A stretch of 44,998 nucleotides of DNA from contig VGOE01000014.1 of the NCBI GenBank assembly GCA_016876035.1, positions 1-44,998 on the forward strand, read 5' to 3'. Below are positions 5,012 to 13,405 of the stretch, in pieces; position 1 is the stretch's first letter; each line of letters begins with the position of its first letter. The notes below the pieces were generated by a model that saw nothing but the letters and a program-made list of their open reading frames with translations, did no database searches and was not told the DNA's origin. Both the position numbers and the translations under genes were made by a program. This DNA is from Chloroflexota bacterium (GTDB lineage Bacteria; Chloroflexota; Dehalococcoidia; UBA2247; RBG-13-53-26).

Positions 5012-6421
5012 ATGTCCATAGCCAATGATTCGCTTTCTTTCATTTCAGCCTCAGAACTGGTGGATCTTGTTAGAAGAAAAGAGATTTCTCCGGTTGAGAT
5101 CGTAGATCAGTTGCTACGAAGGATCAGCGATATCAATCCAAAAATCAACGCTTTCCTCACTGTGGCTGAAGCAGAAGCACGGCTTTTTGCCCAAGCAGCT
5201 GAGGTAGCTGTGATGCAAGGATCTGAGCTACCGCCATTACATGGCGTCCCTTTTTCCATTAAGGATCTTCACTTCACCAGGGGAACACGCACGACTGGGG
5301 GCTCTCTGGTCTACAAGGACTTCGTCCCTGATGAGGATGCTATAGTTGTTGAGCGACTGCGGCACGCCGGCGCCATCCTCATTGGCAAAACGAATACACC
5401 TGAATTCGGGTTGTCAGCAACCACCGAGAATCGTTTGGGTGATGACTGTCGGAATCCCTGGGATCCAAGGAGAACATCGGGAGGTTCGAGTGGCGGTGCT
5501 GCCGCAGCGGCGGCCGCTGGGATCAGCCCCATAGCCATTGGCAGCGATCGCGGCGGCTCTATCCGCATTCCGGCCGGGTTTTGCGGTGTGTATGGCTTTA
5601 AGCCTACTCATGGCCGTGTGCCGCTGTACGCGGCTTTTGCTGGGCCAGCGTTCACTCACATCGGCCCCATTGCTCGAACCGTCAAAGACGCAGCGCTTAC
5701 CCTCAGCGCCATCGCTGGCTTTGATAGGCGTGACCCCACTTCGCTGCGAGAGCCTCCACCGGACTTCGTTGGTGCCTTGGAAGGCAACGTCCGGGGCTTA
5801 CGCATGGCTTTCTGCCCCAACCTTGGTGGTGCCACAGTTGATGCTGAGGTTAAGGAGATAGTTGAGTCGGCAGCCATGGCATTTGAGACTTTTGGCTGTT
5901 CAGTCGATGAAGTGACCTCACCGATTGATGATCCTTTCATCGCCACTCCCATAGTGCTGGCTGATCAATATGCCTGGTCTGGGCACCTTCTTGACGAACA
6001 CAGTGGAGAGCTAACCCCTGAGGTCAGGCAAATCTTAGAGAGCGCCCGCACGATCCCAGGATACGTTTGCTCTCGGGCACTGCGCAAGTTGGAGCGTTTC
6101 CGAATGGAAATGGCGGATTTCTTCGAGCGGTATGACCTCCTGCTCACGCCAACAAACCCCGTTCCCGCTTTCTTGCTCAGGCAAAGACCTGAGAAAATCA
6201 ATGATCAGCCGGTGAACCCTGTATGGAACTCAGCTTGTCTGACTACGCCCTTCAACCTGACAGGCGCACCAGCTGCCACAGTGCCTTGCGGGTTCTCATC
6301 AGAAGGGTTGCCGATGGGGCTGCAGATCGCTGCTGGCTGGGGACAAGACGAGGTGGTAATAAAGGCTTCAGCAGCCTTCGAGAGAGTAAGGCCTTGGGCA
6401 AACAAGACGCCTCGCTGCTGA
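5012..6421 (+). CDS. Amidase (amidase signature family)
   Basis: Protein of 469 residues, the usual length for the family. The Ser-cisSer-Lys machinery is complete: Lys84 in F-S-I-K-D, the serine pair at 159-160 in S-G-G-S-S-G-G, and the nucleophile Ser183 in G-S-D-R-G-G-S-I-R. It would hydrolyse a carboxamide or carbamoyl bond in the cytoplasm; the same fold includes GatA, but no GatB/GatC neighbours exist and the context is catabolic, so a general amidase is more likely. ATG 5012 has GAGG at 5003-5006. An arginine at residue 180 inside the nucleophile motif is less common than Gly/Ile/Thr. It is the last gene before the accessory island; 58 nt separate it from the Fe-S-like gene. Confidence 0.92.
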   Translation: MSIANDSLSFISASELVDLVRRKEISPVEIVDQLLRRISDINPKINAFLTVAEAEARLFAQAAEVAVMQGSELPPLHGVPFSIKDLHFTRGTRTTGGSLVYKDFVPDEDAIVVERLRHAGAILIGKTNTPEFGLSATTENRLGDDCRNPWDPRRTSGGSSGGAAAAAAAGISPIAIGSDRGGSIRIPAGFCGVYGFKPTHGRVPLYAAFAGPAFTHIGPIARTVKDAALTLSAIAGFDRRDPTSLREPPPDFVGALEGNVRGLRMAFCPNLGGATVDAEVKEIVESAAMAFETFGCSVDEVTSPIDDPFIATPIVLADQYAWSGHLLDEHSGELTPEVRQILESARTIPGYVCSRALRKLERFRMEMADFFERYDLLLTPTNPVPAFLLRQRPEKINDQPVNPVWNSACLTTPFNLTGAPAATVPCGFSSEGLPMGLQIAAGWGQDEVVIKASAAFERVRPWANKTPRC

Positions 6422-6708: not shown

Positions 6709-6725
6709 ACGGAAGCCTGTTCTGT
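6709..6725 (+). repeat. 17-bp inverted repeat, left copy
   Basis: ACGGAAGCCTGTTCTGT here is matched exactly, in reverse complement, at 12000-12016. The match stops at 17 bp on both sides. The two copies enclose all of the accessory genes (recombinase to sigma-like protein) and their terminators and nothing else, so they are candidate element ends or recombination sites. Confidence 0.6.
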
Positions 6726-6937
6726 TACCTTACAGTGTCCCGACAACGCTTTGTTCCGCTGCTTGAAGCCATATTATCCCAGCTTCGCCCGGAGCCTGGT
6801 CCGAGTAATAATATGTACCAGCCACTGTCATTAGAGCAGTTCGAAAAATACTTGTAGATTTTGCTGTGGAAAAGTTCTCTTTGGTGGGCCAAACAAGACT
6901 TTTGCAAAACCAGAAACCTTTTTTGAACTTTCTATAG

Positions 6938-6969
6938 AGCCTGCTTCCTCTTTACAGAGGGGGCAGGCT
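6938..6969 (+). promoter_or_regulatory. RNA hairpin covering the recombinase ribosome binding site
   Basis: Left arm AGCCTGCTTCCTC (6938-6950) pairs with GAGGGGGCAGGCT (6957-6969): 13 base pairs with two adjacent G-U wobbles and a six-base loop (T6951-A6956 can add a fourteenth pair). The right arm contains the only Shine-Dalgarno-like sequence of the gene, and the ATG starts 1 nt after the stem. In RNA this should hide the ribosome site. There is no T-tract, so it is not a standard terminator. Confidence 0.55.
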
Positions 6970-6970
6970 T

Positions 6971-7699
6971 ATGGCCACTCCTGAGCACTACTCTCAAAGC
7001 CGAAAGACGAGTAAGGTTTACTTAGAACTTGACGAGGTAGCTCGTCTCGAGAAGACCCCCACCAATCTCAGGGATCAGTTGCTTATCAGGCTACTGTTTC
7101 GTCTGGGGTGCCGTGTCTCTGAAGCTCTGGCTATAACAGTGGACGATATTGACTTTGGCACGGCTGTCGTCACCATCCAGCACCTGAAGACAAGAATGAA
7201 GCTGTCATGCCCCCGGTGTAGCACAAGGCTTGGCAAGAGCCACACCTACTGTCCGAAGTGCGGGGCGAAAGTTGAGAGGTTGGTCGCCGAGGAGAAAGAG
7301 CATCGCCGGGTGAGGACGCTGCCCATCGACGATGACACCCGAGAGATGCTCAGAGAATACATCGAGCGTGGCGGCCCTGTGCTACGCCATGGGAAAAACT
7401 CAATCTTCGGCATCAATCGCCATCGGGCCTGGCAGATTGTTAGAGACTGCGCCGATAGGGCTGCTGTGGGCGAGTTGGTGAACCCGGAAACTGGAAGAAG
7501 GCGCGGGGTGAGTCCCCATAGGCTGCGAGATGCCTTTGCCGTGCACGCTGTAAAGCTCGATGATTCCGGTGATGGACTGAGGCTACTTCAGGAGCACCTT
7601 GGTCACCAGAACTTCAATACCACAGCGAAGTACAGGAAGGTGGCTGGAGAGGAACATCGGGAGTGGTACGACAAATTGTGGGGCGGGGGACACAAATGA
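6971..7699 (+). CDS. Tyrosine recombinase/integrase with internal zinc ribbon, lacking an N-terminal arm domain
   Basis: Protein of 242 residues. The catalytic set of tyrosine recombinases is visible: Arg48 in G-C-R-V-S-E, His183-x2-Arg186, His212 in L-G-H-Q, and the nucleophile Tyr221 in T-A-K-Y-R-K. A four-cysteine zinc ribbon, C80-x2-C83 and C94-x2-C97, lies between the strand ending H-L-K-T-R-M-K and the strand R-V-R-T-L-P-I, where other family members have the short hairpin carrying the catalytic lysine. The chain starts almost directly with the catalytic domain; the SAM-like core-binding domain of XerC/D or phage integrases is missing. Such short forms may be solo catalytic proteins or use the zinc ribbon for DNA contact (inference). 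A GAGGGGG site precedes ATG 6971, inside a hairpin. It is the first gene of the accessory island. Confidence 0.88.
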   Translation: MATPEHYSQSRKTSKVYLELDEVARLEKTPTNLRDQLLIRLLFRLGCRVSEALAITVDDIDFGTAVVTIQHLKTRMKLSCPRCSTRLGKSHTYCPKCGAKVERLVAEEKEHRRVRTLPIDDDTREMLREYIERGGPVLRHGKNSIFGINRHRAWQIVRDCADRAAVGELVNPETGRRRGVSPHRLRDAFAVHAVKLDDSGDGLRLLQEHLGHQNFNTTAKYRKVAGEEHREWYDKLWGGGHK

Positions 7700-7727
7700 G
7701 CGCTCTGTTGCTTGGTAAAGGAGACCC

Positions 7728-8243
7728 ATGGCACCCCTCCGATTAAAGCCATCCAGGGGCGGTTTTCTCCGTCCCTTTGGCTGCGGCTGGTTCATCAGGG
7801 AGTTTCTTCTGGGCCACGGCCCCAATGGCTCACCCGAGATAAACCCCAGTGTGGGCGCCCCCCAGGCAGACATCTTTCGTCACTACAAGATGTCGCTCAT
7901 CGAAGCTACAGCTCTGGATAGGGCTACCAGGCATGAGGAACGAGAGGCTCGGCGTGAGAAGAGGGCCATAAGCCCAGATAATATCGAGAGGCTGACCAGA
8001 CGATATCTGGCCCGTATTCCATACAAAACCACGAGCTGCCGCTTTCACTCCTTTGTGGTCTACTTCTCCACGCTGGAAAGGTTAGGCTGGGTAGAGCCTA
8101 CCGGGCGGGAAGAGCCCTCAGCCTTCCAGTACCATTACCCACCAGGCCCACCCAGAAGATACTACCGGCTCACTGATGCAGGGAGGTTGGCCTCCGACGC
8201 CGCCTGGTCAAATCCCCATGTTGCTCTGTATGGGAGTGGCTAA
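7728..8243 (+). CDS. Hypothetical protein with winged-helix-like C-terminus
   Basis: Protein of 171 residues; AAAGGAG (7717-7723) precedes ATG 7728 by 4 nt, and the gene begins 28 nt after the recombinase. I do not recognise the whole protein. Residues about 1-50 are rich in Gly/Pro, 60-90 form a charged helix, and the C-terminal third has the look of a winged helix: a helix ending F-S-T-L-E-R-L-G-W-V-E, a beta-wing stretch rich in proline, then R-R-Y-Y-R-L-T-D-A-G-R, a string common in PadR/MarR-like regulators. It may be a DNA-binding regulator of the island. An overlapping frame from 7712 is not preferred because it has no ribosome site. Confidence 0.6.
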   Translation: MAPLRLKPSRGGFLRPFGCGWFIREFLLGHGPNGSPEINPSVGAPQADIFRHYKMSLIEATALDRATRHEEREARREKRAISPDNIERLTRRYLARIPYKTTSCRFHSFVVYFSTLERLGWVEPTGREEPSAFQYHYPPGPPRRYYRLTDAGRLASDAAWSNPHVALYGSG

Positions 8244-8377
8244 AATGTCACTTGAAGAACAGTATGCAGTTGGCCTGGATTTGGTGGCTATGGGCAGAGC
8301 TTCTAGGCTCGCCTTTCCCCTTACTGTTCAGTAATTAAAACCAGCGACTGCCTGGGGGTCAAGCAGTAGAAGATATG

Positions 8378-8411
8378 AGTCAAATCGTCAAAACATCAAG
8401 TCAAATGGTCA
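8378..8411. repeat. Two 13-bp direct repeats 21 bp apart (operator candidate)
   Basis: AGTCAAATCGTCA (8378-8390) and AGTCAAATGGTCA (8399-8411) match at 12 of 13 positions. Start-to-start distance is 21 bp, two helical turns, so both copies face the same side of the DNA. They lie 48-81 nt upstream of the start of a gene whose product begins with a helix-turn-helix, which suits an autoregulatory operator. Confidence 0.45.
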
Positions 8412-8458
8412 GATGGAAATAACTTTGCGCTTTACTATACCACTCAAGGAGGTTAAAG

Positions 8459-9688
8459 ATGAAGGAAATATCAAGAGTGCAGAGACTTGAAGTAGCCCAG
8501 TACTATCTCTCTGGCTATTCCTACGGGGAGATAGAGGCAAAGACTGGAGTATCCCACGGCAGTATTGCTAACATTGTTAGGGAACTGGAGAGCGGCAGAT
8601 TGACTATTCCTGGCACCCTAGTTGACCAGCTCAATGATGTTCGCCGGCTTTCTTCTGACCTCAGAAAGAAGGACTTACAGCCGTCTCAAGCCTTATTGGG
8701 TCTTGTGTTCTTTGAAAGGCTTCGGAGTTTGGAGATTACTCCAGAGCAACTGGACATCTGGGCTGAGATTATCGAAGGATTTGCCCATCCGAACTTCTCT
8801 CCGAAAGACTTTTTCGAGACAGCTTTCAGGCTTCGTGAGCTTGAAGAAAGCCAGGGCAAACCTTTTGAGACTCTGGCCGAGGAGTACACGAGGTCTAAAG
8901 AGGCTTTAGACAAACTCAAGGCAGAGGTTGACTCGTTAGGTAAGCATAAGGCAGAACTCACCAAAGAGGTAGAGCCGCTTCGCCTGCAACAGGAGTTGCT
9001 GGAAAGAACCAAGAAGAAGCTTGGAAGCGAGGTGGAGATACAGACAACTAAGCTGCGGGAACTCAAAGAAGAGGTGAAGGAAGCTGAAGAAGAGAAGAAG
9101 CGAATCGATAGGGATACCAAGGACCTTCAGAGAAGGAGAGCGAAACTCTCTTCAGAGGTAGATGGCAAAGAAGAGTCGCTAAGAAAGCTTGACGACCTGG
9201 GCTTATCTAACGAAGACCTTCTACGGCTTACCTCGTTCATGGAAAGGACAAGTAGAAACGAAGGCATCAGCGGGAACCAGGTGAGAGAAAGGTTCTTCTC
9301 GGTACTGAGCCTGGTTGAAGATGCTTCCGGGCTGGAGAAGCGGCTGAAGGCGGAAGAGGAGCAACTAAGTGAACTCGTTAAGAAGCACTCCACTGTGGCC
9401 GGTGAGATAGTCGAGCTTGAAAGGAAGAAAGGCTTCCTGGAAGGCGAGATCAGCGAAAGTGTTTCGTCAGTCTTGCAAGGGATAAGGAATAGCGGGGCAC
9501 AGGCCGTCTCAGACATCCAGCAAAAGGTGACCGCTATCGAGAGTCAATTCAATGCCTTATTGGAATATACCCTGAAGGCAGGGGAAGCCGTGGGCGAGAT
9601 GAGACAGCTGGTGAAAAAAGGCGAGGAGTCGGAAAAGATCTTGAGCAGTTTCCTCACAGATATGCGAGGCAGATTAGGGAGCAATTGA
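8459..9688 (+). CDS. HTH and long coiled-coil protein, function unknown
   Basis: Protein of 409 residues with a strong AAGGAGGT (8446-8453) 5 nt before ATG. Residues about 8-45 form a helix-turn-helix of the resolvase/sigma-region-4 style (Y-S-Y-G-E-I-E-A-K-T-G-V-S-H-G-S-I). Residues 50-130 are a helical domain with several Leu-Pro steps. Two long heptad-rich coiled coils follow (about 130-225 and 285-330), separated by a small N-E-D-L-L-R-L segment. I know a similar layout (HTH, then R-x-L-S-x-D-L-R-K-K) mainly from archaeal hypothetical proteins; that is recollection, not a search. The next gene overlaps its stop in TGATG, so the two are probably translationally coupled and work together. 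Function is unknown: a DNA-bound scaffold, partitioning factor or regulator would fit. Confidence 0.75.
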   Translation: MKEISRVQRLEVAQYYLSGYSYGEIEAKTGVSHGSIANIVRELESGRLTIPGTLVDQLNDVRRLSSDLRKKDLQPSQALLGLVFFERLRSLEITPEQLDIWAEIIEGFAHPNFSPKDFFETAFRLRELEESQGKPFETLAEEYTRSKEALDKLKAEVDSLGKHKAELTKEVEPLRLQQELLERTKKKLGSEVEIQTTKLRELKEEVKEAEEEKKRIDRDTKDLQRRRAKLSSEVDGKEESLRKLDDLGLSNEDLLRLTSFMERTSRNEGISGNQVRERFFSVLSLVEDASGLEKRLKAEEEQLSELVKKHSTVAGEIVELERKKGFLEGEISESVSSVLQGIRNSGAQAVSDIQQKVTAIESQFNALLEYTLKAGEAVGEMRQLVKKGEESEKILSSFLTDMRGRLGSN

Positions 9689-10269
9689 TGTCACGCAGCA
9701 ACTGGAACCAGATCCTGGTTAATCTGAAGAATGAACTGGCTTCCATGAAAGGTAGAGCTGAGGAGATATCAAATCGCTTTGAAACGTTAACCAGACAAGC
9801 GGAGCTATTGAAAATCGAATTGCTCGAGCATTCTCTGGAGGAGCAGAGGAGATCTGAGGCACGTCGCAGAGGAATGGTGTCACTTATCAGGGGCAAGAAA
9901 AATATAGGGACCACATTAGCGGTGGGATTGGGCGGGCTAATTCTAGGTGGCTTAGTAACCAGAGACAAATATGTGGCTTTGAACACAGGAATGTCAGCTC
10001 TTGATGGTATGCTTCAGGGGTATGGAGCGACACAATGGGCAGTGTCCTTGGGAAAAGAAATCGTCGTCACGTCAAAGGATGAACTCCCATCGAAAGGAAC
10101 GTGGGTTACACTGGAGAGTCTCAAGAAGGCTATAGAAGACCTGAAGAGAGAAGCCTCTGAAGGGCAGCAACTGGGCAGCTTTGACAACGTCATTCACAGA
10201 CTCAAACAGTCCAGAAAACTAATCTACTTTGGCACGCCAATTTACGTATTAGGTTACACACGGGAATAG
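9688..10269 (+). CDS. Coiled-coil protein with glycine-rich hydrophobic segment, partner of the HTH/coiled-coil protein
   Basis: Protein of 193 residues starting at ATG 9688, which shares one base with the upstream stop (TGATG); a TTG one codon earlier is possible. Residues about 5-60 form an amphipathic coiled coil, followed by a basic patch (R-R-R-G). Next comes a hydrophobic glycine-rich stretch of about 20 residues at roughly 68-88 (L-A-V-G-L-G-G-L-I-L-G-G-L-V), which could be a single membrane segment or a glycine-zipper core. The rest is soluble, mixed alpha/beta. I do not recognise a family. Coupling to the preceding gene suggests a complex through coiled-coil pairing, possibly linking DNA to the membrane (inference). 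Confidence 0.65.
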   Translation: MSRSNWNQILVNLKNELASMKGRAEEISNRFETLTRQAELLKIELLEHSLEEQRRSEARRRGMVSLIRGKKNIGTTLAVGLGGLILGGLVTRDKYVALNTGMSALDGMLQGYGATQWAVSLGKEIVVTSKDELPSKGTWVTLESLKKAIEDLKREASEGQQLGSFDNVIHRLKQSRKLIYFGTPIYVLGYTRE

Positions 10270-10651
10270 GACTTAAGGGCAGGGTGGTGTTCCCGTGACC
10301 ATCTCACTCGTTATTGCCCTCAACAGTCCTTTGGATCAAGACTGAGCCTCTTGCCTCCCGCCCATCACCTCCCTCCGCTGGCATCGCACTCAGTCTGTTT
10401 AGCCCTCATCGTGCTGGTTGCCCTCCCAAGAGGCAAGACCCTATTCCCACTGGCTGGCCTGTACCCCAGGAAGCCAGATGCCTGACCCGTAGAGGAACGA
10501 TAGTCCGTCCTGCTTCTTGTGCTTGAGAAACAGCACTCTCCAAACCTATCACGAAAATATAGGTTCGTTTTGTTGATGAACTTAAGGACATTTTGTTCAA
10601 TACTGGTAATAGATCGCTTCTGTTTCGCACCTTAACAATCGAATAGCGAAA

Positions 10652-10666
10652 GTCCAGAGCCTTGCC
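10652..10666 (+). repeat. 15-bp inverted repeat, copy upstream of the sigma-like gene
   Basis: GTCCAGAGCCTTGCC recurs exactly in reverse complement at 11468-11482. The two copies flank the sigma-like gene (10742-11377). A related box ACAATCGAATAG (10635-10646) recurs in direct orientation as ACAATTGAATAG at 11481-11492. Confidence 0.5.
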
Positions 10667-10684
10667 TTGCTGGTAAATAGAAAC

Positions 10685-10714
10685 GCCCTGGCTAGTGGCA
10701 ACCTAGACCAGGGC
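10685..10714 (+). promoter_or_regulatory. Leader hairpin of the sigma-like gene
   Basis: GCCCTGGCTAG (10685-10695) pairs with CTAG-A-CCAGGGC (10703-10714) with one bulged base and a seven-base loop. It lies 27 nt before the start codon and just upstream of the AAAGGGAGGG ribosome site, with no T-tract. It could modulate translation or transcript stability. Confidence 0.4.
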
Positions 10715-10741
10715 AAGTCTAACAAAGGGAGGGTATCCACA

Positions 10742-11377
10742 ATGCTAGACCATGTTGACTATATCACACAGGTTGACCACCATCAAGGCAATGGCAACGG
10801 GGCTGATCCACTATCCTATGACCATCTGGAGGGCGATTGGGCGTTATTCTATAAGGTAGCCAGAGGCTTTAACCACAAGGTGAAGCCAGAGGATAGACAG
10901 GACGTCTTGCATGACCTCATGTTGACGATGGCCAAAGTAAAGGCAAAGTATGATCTGGCGGGTAAGCCTTTGACCGAAGCGGGGTTAAAGAGGGTTGCCA
11001 GCTACCAGGTAGCCGACTACTGGCGGAACCAGTATAGGCTTATCAACTGGATAGACTGCGGAAGCTGTAGCCAAAAACAAAGGCACGGGTGCAAAGACAA
11101 CGGGCGATACTCCGAATGTCCGAAGGCTATCAGGCTGGAAAGCCTTGACAGGCTGATAGAGGACGGCAATGGTGGTAAGACCGAACTCTATCAGATGTTG
11201 GCTGACGATAAGGCTCCTGACATAGTGGCTATGCTGGATGCAAAGCACACCCTCAAGGGTTACCCTACACGGGCAATCCAGATTGCTTACAAAAGGTATA
11301 GCGGCTACCCGTTAGATAGCCATGAGCAAAGATACCTCAACCGCTATCGCAACAAAGTTCAGAAAACCTTAATTTGA
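10742..11377 (+). CDS. Sigma-70 region-2-like protein with four-cysteine insert
   Basis: Protein of 211 residues. Residues about 30-100 read like sigma-70 region 2: a helix D-W-A-L-F-Y-K-V-A-R-G-F, the acidic P-E-D-R-Q-D-V-L-H-D-L-M helix (as in region 2.2), and V-A-S-Y-Q-V-A-D-Y-W-R-N-Q-Y-R (as in regions 2.3-2.4). A likely zinc knuckle follows directly: C106, C109, C117 and C126. The C-terminal part (about 165-211) is a basic helical region that could replace region 4, but no clear HTH is seen. ATG 10742 is chosen because AAAGGGAGGG lies ahead; the frame is open from 10667. The leader is hairpin-rich. It may be a divergent ECF-type sigma or a DNA-binding relative used by a mobile element. 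The family call is moderate, function is inferred. Confidence 0.6.
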   Translation: MLDHVDYITQVDHHQGNGNGADPLSYDHLEGDWALFYKVARGFNHKVKPEDRQDVLHDLMLTMAKVKAKYDLAGKPLTEAGLKRVASYQVADYWRNQYRLINWIDCGSCSQKQRHGCKDNGRYSECPKAIRLESLDRLIEDGNGGKTELYQMLADDKAPDIVAMLDAKHTLKGYPTRAIQIAYKRYSGYPLDSHEQRYLNRYRNKVQKTLI

Positions 11378-11449
11378 TGTCCGATTTGCAGACTTTTTCC
11401 CGATATATACAGTGAGAGGATAAAACCTCTTGCAGAAGACTTGAACGAT

Positions 11450-11465
11450 GCCAGCGCATTGCGGG
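11450..11465 (+). repeat. Stem-loop repeat element, copy 1
   Basis: GCCAGCGCATTGCGGG matches 11598-11613 at 15 of 16 bases. In this copy ATGC-CAGC-GCAT forms a small hairpin with a CAGC loop. Confidence 0.45.
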
Positions 11466-11467
11466 TC

Positions 11468-11482
11468 GGCAAGGCTCTGGAC
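11468..11482 (-). repeat. 15-bp inverted repeat, copy downstream of the sigma-like gene
   Basis: GGCAAGGCTCTGGAC is the exact reverse complement of 10652-10666. Confidence 0.5.
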
Positions 11483-11597
11483 AATTGAATAGTGCGGGCT
11501 TTTGATTCGGGGTGAGGCTTGCTTTGGGCGATTAGCCTTGCTCTGGCTAATTCTATCTGTACCAAGCCGTCTTGAGGGTTAGTCCTCAAGCAATAGT

Positions 11598-11613
11598 GCC
11601 AGCGCACTGCGGG
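11598..11613 (+). repeat. Stem-loop repeat element, copy 2
   Basis: GCCAGCGCACTGCGGG. Here the hairpin is AGTGC-CAGC-GCACT (11595-11608); the outer pairs differ from copy 1 but pairing is kept. Confidence 0.45.
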
Positions 11614-11751
11614 CTATTGATCAGAGGCTTGAGAGGATCAGAGAGCCAGACCAAAAAACAAGGCAGTAATCACTCGGATGATATAGGGTGAGTCTTACCT
11701 GTTCACGGTGCAGCGCCAACAAACCAAAAGCCCACAACAGAGACAATTACA

Positions 11752-11796
11752 GGCAAAGAAGCCTCTAACGCATGAGGGGTTTCTTTGCCTTTTTTT
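11752..11796 (+). terminator. Rho-independent terminator
   Basis: GGCAAAGAA (11752-11760) pairs with TTCTTTGCC (11781-11789), extended inside by CC-TC against GAGG, and is followed by seven T residues (11790-11796). This is a textbook terminator for + strand transcription out of the accessory island. Confidence 0.85.
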
Positions 11797-11807
11797 GTCC
11801 CTTCAAC

Positions 11808-11843
11808 GGGGTTAGCCTGAGCAAATCGGGCTAACCCCTTTTT
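11808..11843 (+). terminator. Second Rho-independent terminator
   Basis: GGGGTTAGCC (11808-11817) pairs perfectly with GGCTAACCCC (11829-11838), followed by TTTTT (11839-11843). It lies 11 nt after the first terminator. Confidence 0.85.
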
Positions 11844-11945
11844 GTTTATCAAACAATGTCCTCAAGAGCTGGCCAGGGACTTGACCAGGCAGCAGAATCA
11901 GGGAAATTTCATCACCAAGTTTGAAGAACGGACTAGAGCGATCTT

Positions 11946-11983
11946 AGGGGCTCTACCAGTTAACCAACTGGGGAGCCCCTTTC
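11946..11983 (+). terminator. Third stem-loop, probable terminator
   Basis: AGGGGCTC (11946-11953) pairs with GAGCCCCT (11973-11980), and inside it CCAGTT (11956-11961) pairs with AACTGG (11966-11971). The T-tract is short and broken (TTTCTTGT). It ends 16 nt before the right 17-bp inverted repeat. Confidence 0.6.
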
Positions 11984-11999
11984 TTGTATCCAGCATCAC

Positions 12000-12016
12000 A
12001 CAGAACAGGCTTCCGT
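12000..12016 (-). repeat. 17-bp inverted repeat, right copy
   Basis: ACAGAACAGGCTTCCGT is the exact reverse complement of 6709-6725. It lies between the last island terminator and the 3' end of the polysaccharide operon, as expected for an element boundary. Confidence 0.6.
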
Positions 12017-12124
12017 GACTTTTGCTCAGTTTGGAAGCCGCTTTGGCAGGCTCTCTGGATCTGATTGTGGCTCATCCCTTTATCGAATCAAACGTTTGGG
12101 ATTCACTGTCCAGATTCCCTATCC

Positions 12125-13405
12125 CTATTTTGGGAGATGATGTAGCACCCCTCTGGTGTCCACCACCAGTTTGGCCCCCTCAGCGACCTTGGCATAATCG
12201 ACGCCGCCGTGGTCGGTGATGATGACCACGCAGTCGCTTTGCCCCAAGAGCTCATCGGATAAGAGCGCTCGGGTGTACACCTCCTCACCTACCCTGAACC
12301 TGGGGATAAAGGGGTCAGAATAGCAGATTTGGGCGCCCCTCTCCCTCAAGAGCTCTGCTATCCTCAGTGCCGGGGAGTTGCGCACATCAGCCACATCCCT
12401 CTTGTAGGCCACCCCCAGGAGCAGGATGCGGGAGCCATTGACGCTCTTCTGGTGGGTATTCAAAGCTTCAGCCACTTTGCCCACCACCCAGTAGGGCATG
12501 TTTTCATTGATATTGCCGGCAAGCTCAATGAACTGGGTGTGAAAATCATACTCCTTTGCTTTCCACGAGAGATAGAAGGGGTCAACCGGGATGCAATGTC
12601 CCCCCAGTCCCGGCCCGGGGTAAAAGGGCATGAAACCAAATGGCTTGGAGGAGGCCGCCTCGATAACCTCCCAGATATCTATCTTCATCCGGTCACAAAG
12701 CATGGCCAGCTCATTTATCAGGGCTATATTGACACAGCGAAAGATATTCTCCAGGAGCTTGGTCATCTCAGCCGCTCTGGGTGAAGAAACAGGCACCACC
12801 TGTTCCACAAACTGCCCATAGAAGAGATGGGCGAGCTCCGTGCATCTTGGCGTTACCCCTCCTACCACTTTAGGGACATTTCTTACCCCATACCTTCTAT
12901 TTCCGGGGTCTATTCGCTCGGGAGAGAAAGCCAGGAAGAAATCCTTCCCTACCTTGAGCCCACCAGCCTCCAGAATGGGTAGAGTAACCTCCTCGGTGGT
13001 AGTGGGGAAGGTGGTGCTCTCCAGGATAACCAGCTTCTCTCCGCCCGCCAGATGTGGGGCAATGGTCTGGGAGGCTTCTACTATGGAAGAGATATCGGGT
13101 TCCTTCGTCTTGGACAAGGGCGTAGGCACGCAGATAATGACCACGTCCAGTTGGGCTATGATGCCGGGGTCGGCGGTGGCCTCCAGTCGCCCTTGCTTCA
13201 CCAGGTCAGCCAGGAGGTGTTGGGGGACGTCTTCGATATAGCTCTGTCCCTCCCTTATTCGCTTAACCTTCTCGCCATCCTTTTCCATTCCCACCAGCGG
13301 GAAGCCCGCCTGAGCTATCTCCACTGCCAGAGGCAACCCCACGTACCCCAACCCCATAACCCCAACTCGAGCAGACCGAGAGAGAATCCTGTCAGCGAGA
13401 GTCAT
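12125..13405 (-). CDS. wbpA: Nucleotide-sugar 6-dehydrogenase, WbpA type (UDP-GlcNAc to UDP-GlcNAcA)
   Basis: Protein of 426 residues in the UDP-glucose/GDP-mannose dehydrogenase family. The NAD-binding motif G-L-G-Y-V-G-L-P is at 18-25, Lys216 lies in A-A-E-M-T-K, and the catalytic Cys271 is in G-G-H-C-I-P-V-D-P. The enzyme oxidises C6 of a UDP-sugar twice to the uronic acid. WbpA (UDP-GlcNAc) is chosen over WecC (UDP-ManNAc) because the same operon encodes WbpB-WbpD, WbpE and WbpI homologues, the other steps of the UDP-2,3-diacetamido-mannuronic acid route. GGGAGG precedes ATG 13405 by about 8 nt. It is the last gene of the operon, 56 nt after the second VanZ-like gene. Confidence 0.9.
   Translation of the reverse strand: MTLADRILSRSARVGVMGLGYVGLPLAVEIAQAGFPLVGMEKDGEKVKRIREGQSYIEDVPQHLLADLVKQGRLEATADPGIIAQLDVVIICVPTPLSKTKEPDISSIVEASQTIAPHLAGGEKLVILESTTFPTTTEEVTLPILEAGGLKVGKDFFLAFSPERIDPGNRRYGVRNVPKVVGGVTPRCTELAHLFYGQFVEQVVPVSSPRAAEMTKLLENIFRCVNIALINELAMLCDRMKIDIWEVIEAASSKPFGFMPFYPGPGLGGHCIPVDPFYLSWKAKEYDFHTQFIELAGNINENMPYWVVGKVAEALNTHQKSVNGSRILLLGVAYKRDVADVRNSPALRIAELLRERGAQICYSDPFIPRFRVGEEVYTRALLSDELLGQSDCVVIITDHGGVDYAKVAEGAKLVVDTRGVLHHLPK

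Follow-up and report, generated by a model that had tools for sequence, protein, structure and literature searches.

A 17-bp inverted repeat around a five-gene island in a Chloroflexota genome: a possible relocated relic of a tRNA-associated integrative element

What does a perfect 17-bp inverted repeat mean when its two copies stand at the edges of a small accessory island? We discuss this question for the window, the whole stretch of 44,998 nucleotides analysed here (contig VGOE01000014.1). On the whole, the reading we favour, with a probability of about one half, is that the island represents the defective remains of an integrative element of Dehalococcoidia associated with tRNA genes, relocated with a piece of the flank of a tRNA-Leu gene, and that the repeat is a homology used in the joining or a scar of it. 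The features concerned are as follows.

5012 to 6421, plus strand: amidase gene, the left neighbour, convergent with the right neighbour
6709 to 6725, plus strand: left copy of the 17-bp repeat, ACGGAAGCCTGTTCTGT; 6715-6725 belongs to the copy of the tRNA-Leu flank, and 6709-6714 (ACGGAA) lies outside that copy
6715 to 6888, no strand assigned: 174-bp copy of the DNA 3' of tRNA-Leu(UAG), 100% identical to pieces of contigs C73 and C66
6882 to 6888, minus strand: last 7 nt of tRNA-Leu (CCCACCA), an attachment-like junction between tRNA flank and island
6971 to 7699, plus strand: int, a tyrosine recombinase with the catalytic domain only and an inserted zinc ribbon, part of the conserved module of the element family
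7728 to 8243, plus strand: orf2, the conserved partner of int in the family, with a weak winged-helix (PadR-like) match
8459 to 9688, plus strand: coil, with an N-terminal HTH and a long coiled coil; a diverged homologue (27%) lies beside int in genome G051
9685 to 10269, plus strand: memb, the partner of coil, with relatives in 4 of 392 other genomes of the class
10548 to 10645, plus strand: conserved non-coding leader upstream of the sigma-like gene, common to L047, L051 and L052 and weaker in L038, L039 and L048
10742 to 11377, plus strand: sig, a sigma-like protein kept in the element family
12000 to 12016, minus strand: right copy of the 17-bp repeat, ACAGAACAGGCTTCCGT, the presumed right edge of the relocated DNA
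12125 to 13405, minus strand: UDP-sugar dehydrogenase gene (ugd), the right neighbour, convergent

The sequence-only reading described 6709-6725 and 12000-12016 as a perfect inverted repeat, and the two are indeed exact reverse complements. They form the sole exact 17-bp inverted pair of the window, and a search at up to 2 mismatches finds only these two copies of the 17-mer in the 2.53-Mb assembly. An unplanned match of this length had been called only mildly unlikely, which agrees with the outcome of 40 dinucleotide shuffles, as an exact 17-bp inverted pair occurs in 3 of the shuffled windows (mean 0.125). These shuffles, together with other long inverted pairs present in the window, are what could be said for the view that the left 17-mer overlaps a junction by chance and that the pair is meaningless. 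However, the left copy spans 6714/6715, where a 174-bp segment 100% identical to a second locus starts, and because this junction is defined independently of the repeat, we place the repeat above chance. By our own estimate, the chance of a 17-bp pair landing on the junction is 0.125 x 2 x 16/45,000, or about 1e-4, and mere coincidence is considered improbable. The symmetry stops abruptly at 17 bp, with matches at 13 of 60 positions outside and 17 of 60 inside, where 15 are expected. A target-site duplication sought outside the 17-mers amounts to a match of only 2 bp, and no direct att repeats are found across both island edges, the longest direct match being 12 bp and lying off the edges. Elsewhere in the island, an exact 15-bp inverted repeat (10652-10666 and 11468-11482) flanks the sigma-like gene; it is probably a chance pair, since it is not kept in relatives.

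The second locus emerges from a genome search with the region. Positions 6715-6822 equal C73:10745-10852 at 100% identity, with C73 stopping five bases further (TGTAA), and positions 6819-6888 equal C66:12870-12939 on the other strand, again at 100%. The C66 match adjoins tRNA-Leu(UAG) at C66:12792-12876, the single gene of its kind in the genome, and takes in the last seven nucleotides, CCCACCA; it ends precisely at the end of an IS, an end which recurs at many contig ends. The C73 and C66 matches overlap by the 4 bp CAGC, as a 4-bp target duplication would. We infer a single locus, interrupted by the IS and so divided between C73 and C66, of which the window carries a second, IS-free copy of 174 bp; the IS and the 4-bp duplication are found only in the C73/C66 copy. 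In the window, the tRNA-Leu end occupies 6882-6888 and the remainder of the tRNA is missing, leaving a remnant junction, with the island starting directly after the tRNA end at 6888. Seven nucleotides of a tRNA 3' end followed by the island have the form of an attachment junction, which points to a former integration at tRNA-Leu. The 174-bp piece contains an open frame of 46 aa, for which neither a Pfam match nor a homologue outside the source genome was found. As for the functional boundary that had been thought plausible at both edges, the left one is demonstrated independently by the junction at 6714/6715, which the 17-mer spans, whereas the right one is conjectural; no significant second copy of the right-edge region, 11378-12124, is found elsewhere in the genome.

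A misassembly of the contig from strain variants, at 6714/6715 or across the 174-bp repeat, might produce such a picture, as the assembly of the genome consists of 159 contigs and may mix strains, and a 174-bp repeat could mis-pair its flanks if k was shorter than the repeat. Yet a typical k-mer assembler would not make a join on a match as short as 11-17 bp, and the IS-split copy pairs C73 with C66, leaving the amidase with the island as the other molecule. Such an error is quite improbable in our opinion.

The sequence-only reading proposed a terminal-inverted-repeat (TIR) unit or an invertible segment, and perfect inverted repeats bracketing a recombinase gene do recall a transposon with 17-bp TIRs or a segment flipped by the island's own tyrosine recombinase, all the more as an 11-bp arm with a 6-bp spacer resembles tyrosine-recombinase sites. 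Our results go against both. The island shares with TIR transposons the exact inverted repeats at both edges, but it has no transposase and no target duplication, and its repeat is not common to relatives. The reported lack of a DDE transposase is borne out, with no such domain in any of the five island genes, and so is the placing of all genes between the repeats on the plus strand; among the three terminators described, two are strong (11751-11790 and 11808-11838), while the third is a hairpin near 11947-11979 recognised by eye. As TIRs the 17-mers were rejected on the ground that the identity with the tRNA-Leu locus begins at 6715, inside the repeat, so that 11 of its bases form part of DNA flanking a tRNA at another place in the genome. 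An invertible switch is not supported either, because the island lies between two convergent genes, and flipping it would not alter these neighbours and would switch nothing outside; no sign of inversion is seen, and int seems to be without a core-binding domain. A classical att pair fails in that the 17-mers are inverted, with no direct-repeat att sites across the edges. In addition, relatives carry the island genes without the 17-mer: in 268 kb of int-carrying relatives there are 7 matches at up to 4 mismatches against 6.6 expected, and no exact 11-mer. The sequence-only reading had itself named such relatives among the findings that would speak against it. The search for an empty site covered 9 genomes of the same family and 80 named amidase loci, the best with 60% identity, none of which provides a congener. 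A TIR transposon or an invertible segment is very improbable.

The relatives show which family the island genes belong to. int, orf2 and the sigma-like gene make up a module found across Dehalococcoidia, and the window island keeps the family gene order int-orf2-(cargo)-sigma-like. The element family with this zinc-ribbon tyrosine recombinase module is apparently undescribed. Fuller members are the IMG/VR viral contigs L047, L051 and L052 and two copies in genome G027, with the order tRNA 3' end, serine recombinase, HTH gene, int, orf2, cargo, sigma-like gene and sliding-clamp-like gene (the L051 contig does not include the tRNA end). Like the window, these five have int (62-67%), orf2 (49-74%), the sigma-like gene and the non-coding leader; unlike the window, they have serine recombinase and clamp genes and no 17-mer. 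The G027 elements are much larger, with many extra genes between recombinase and int, and G027 also encodes a Gp3-like directionality factor. The serine recombinase converges on a tRNA gene, being tRNA-Asn or tRNA-Val in G027, tRNA-Val in L033 and L052, and, for L047, the tRNA with which the contig starts; the tRNA-adjacent position in L031 is taken by a conventional tyrosine integrase, and int is probably not the chromosomal integrase of the family. Gene order in the relatives continues beyond both island edges, with serine recombinase and HTH gene before int and the clamp gene after the sigma-like gene, so that the window island is a truncated version. Compared with relatives, the window copy is without the tRNA-adjacent integrase, the directionality factor and the clamp gene, and because of these missing genes we regard it as a truncated relic rather than a functional member.

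A known system of the same class offers a comparison, namely the Dehalococcoides serine-recombinase genomic islands that sit at ssrA (McMurdie et al. 2011, PMC3146451). Both systems belong to Dehalococcoidia and insert at the 3' end of an RNA gene, and the fuller family relatives have a CcrB-like serine recombinase embedded at the attachment site, the L047 product matching CcrB. Unlike the ssrA islands, the family targets tRNA genes and has the module int-orf2-sig-clamp, and the window copy is without the recombinase and flanked by an inverted, not a direct, repeat.

Several observations concern other elements. The cargo slot from orf2 to the sigma-like gene differs between the two G027 elements (C1:270090-273404 and 769377-773008; L039 and L038), with one 1104-aa protein in one copy and four minus-strand genes, regulator- or membrane-protein-like by eye, in the other. 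In G012 (L040, 7857-7990 and 10502-10630), a split int homologue lies between direct repeats with exact stretches of 43 bp and 28 bp, about 2.65 kb apart, which are possibly the att repeats of an int-only unit. The source genome G000 itself has two genes for large serine recombinases, on contigs C79 and C28 (L174 and L176), that extend at their 3' ends into tRNA-Ala and tRNA-Asp, and we read these loci as further tRNA-integrated elements.

The best alternative to short-homology joining takes the 17-mers for a pair of recombination half-sites, cut at a GC core by a serine recombinase acting in trans. The site of the circular form would be ACAGAACAG-GC-CTGTTCTGT and the target ACGGAA-GC-TTCCGT, giving 9+2+6 = 17 bp inverted at the ends; the circular junction ACAGAACAGGCCTGTTCTGT and, in an uninterrupted amidase-ugd gap, the palindrome ACGGAAGCTTCCGT would then be expected. 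The identity with C73 does start exactly at GC, further large serine recombinases are encoded in the genome, including the two that extend into tRNA genes, and serine-integrase attP sites are pseudo-palindromic (PMC3783163). When the repeat is compared with serine-integrase att pairs, in which an extended imperfect dyad surrounds a shared central dinucleotide, a GC core and a perfect inner dyad are found with no symmetry past 17 bp. Against this alternative, such sites have long and imperfect dyads, whereas here the symmetry is exact over 17 bp and drops to chance level beyond. It would also be unusual for the core to be palindromic, as this removes orientation control. Besides, the island has no serine recombinase, and family members use tRNA ends, not a site in the amidase gap. 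Overall, we hold this alternative to be unlikely. In a related form, the 17-mers would be composite sites with a palindromic GC core at which a resident serine recombinase moves the integrase-less element in trans and in either orientation, the same end having been joined to the amidase gap and to C73; this seems decidedly doubtful. On the minus strand, 6719-6736 resembles the tRNA-adjacent arm motif (ACTGTANRRTANNCAGAAC-like) of the serine recombinases in the family; the resemblance was set aside and not relied on, because the pattern scanned was built partly from the window, needs a gap and points the opposite way.

Another explanation is that the insertion split an ancestral hairpin, such as a bidirectional terminator in the amidase-ugd gap, and that each 17-mer is one of its arms. 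The convergent neighbours agree with this, and a 17-bp stem is normal for a terminator, the flanking inverted copies then following automatically. A coincidental or homology-driven match is still required, though, as 11 bases of the 17-mer run on into the copied tRNA-Leu flank; moreover there is no clear T tract on either side, and the hairpin was not found in relatives. A split hairpin is rather unlikely on this balance.

We return to the relocated relic. Its ancestor would have been integrated at tRNA-Leu, and a piece made of the 174-bp flank and the int-proximal part of the element, without the integrase, may have moved into the gap where amidase and ugd converge and been joined there; at both edges of the join, the 17-bp inverted repeat would most likely be a short homology or a scar. 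We favour joining at short homology on two grounds: the copy of the tRNA-Leu flank itself supplies 11 of the 17 bases, and the perfect match breaks off abruptly. The relocation is consistent with an exact 174-bp duplication that starts inside the left 17-mer and ends in tRNA-Leu, with the position of the family's fuller members at tRNA 3' ends, and with a perfect repeat that has no symmetry beyond it and no target-site duplication. Against it, the 174 bp could be an element end left at tRNA-Leu, and it is unusual for a join to use an 11-bp match on one side while the other shows 17 bp in inverted order. The ancestral copy of the 174 bp may be that of the window or that of C73/C66.

Two non-coding stretches are conserved in the family. 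The leader of the sigma-like gene lies at 10548-10645 in the window, 4310-4405 in L047, 3690-3775 in L051 and 4377-4465 in L052, with the motif TATAGGTTCATTCTTTTAATGAAC in L047/L052-type rows and TTTTGTTGG and GCACNTTAACAA across rows. It is likely a regulatory element; Rfam gives nothing above gathering scores in L047, L051, L052 and L038, and RNAalifold finds no structure in an alignment with some rows trimmed too short for a fair comparison. A second conserved stretch (TATATATAGTGGRAGCA...GCTTACTACTAG...) is present between the sigma-like and clamp genes in L038, L039, L047, L048, L051 and L052; it is hairpin-rich by eye and possibly a structured RNA.

If the relic reading holds, the donor site can be named: a fragment of a mobile element would have carried a scrap of its old tRNA neighbourhood along, which makes the rearrangement traceable. 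The analysis also links the island to an apparently undescribed element family of Dehalococcoidia, and it speaks against spending effort on an inversion switch.
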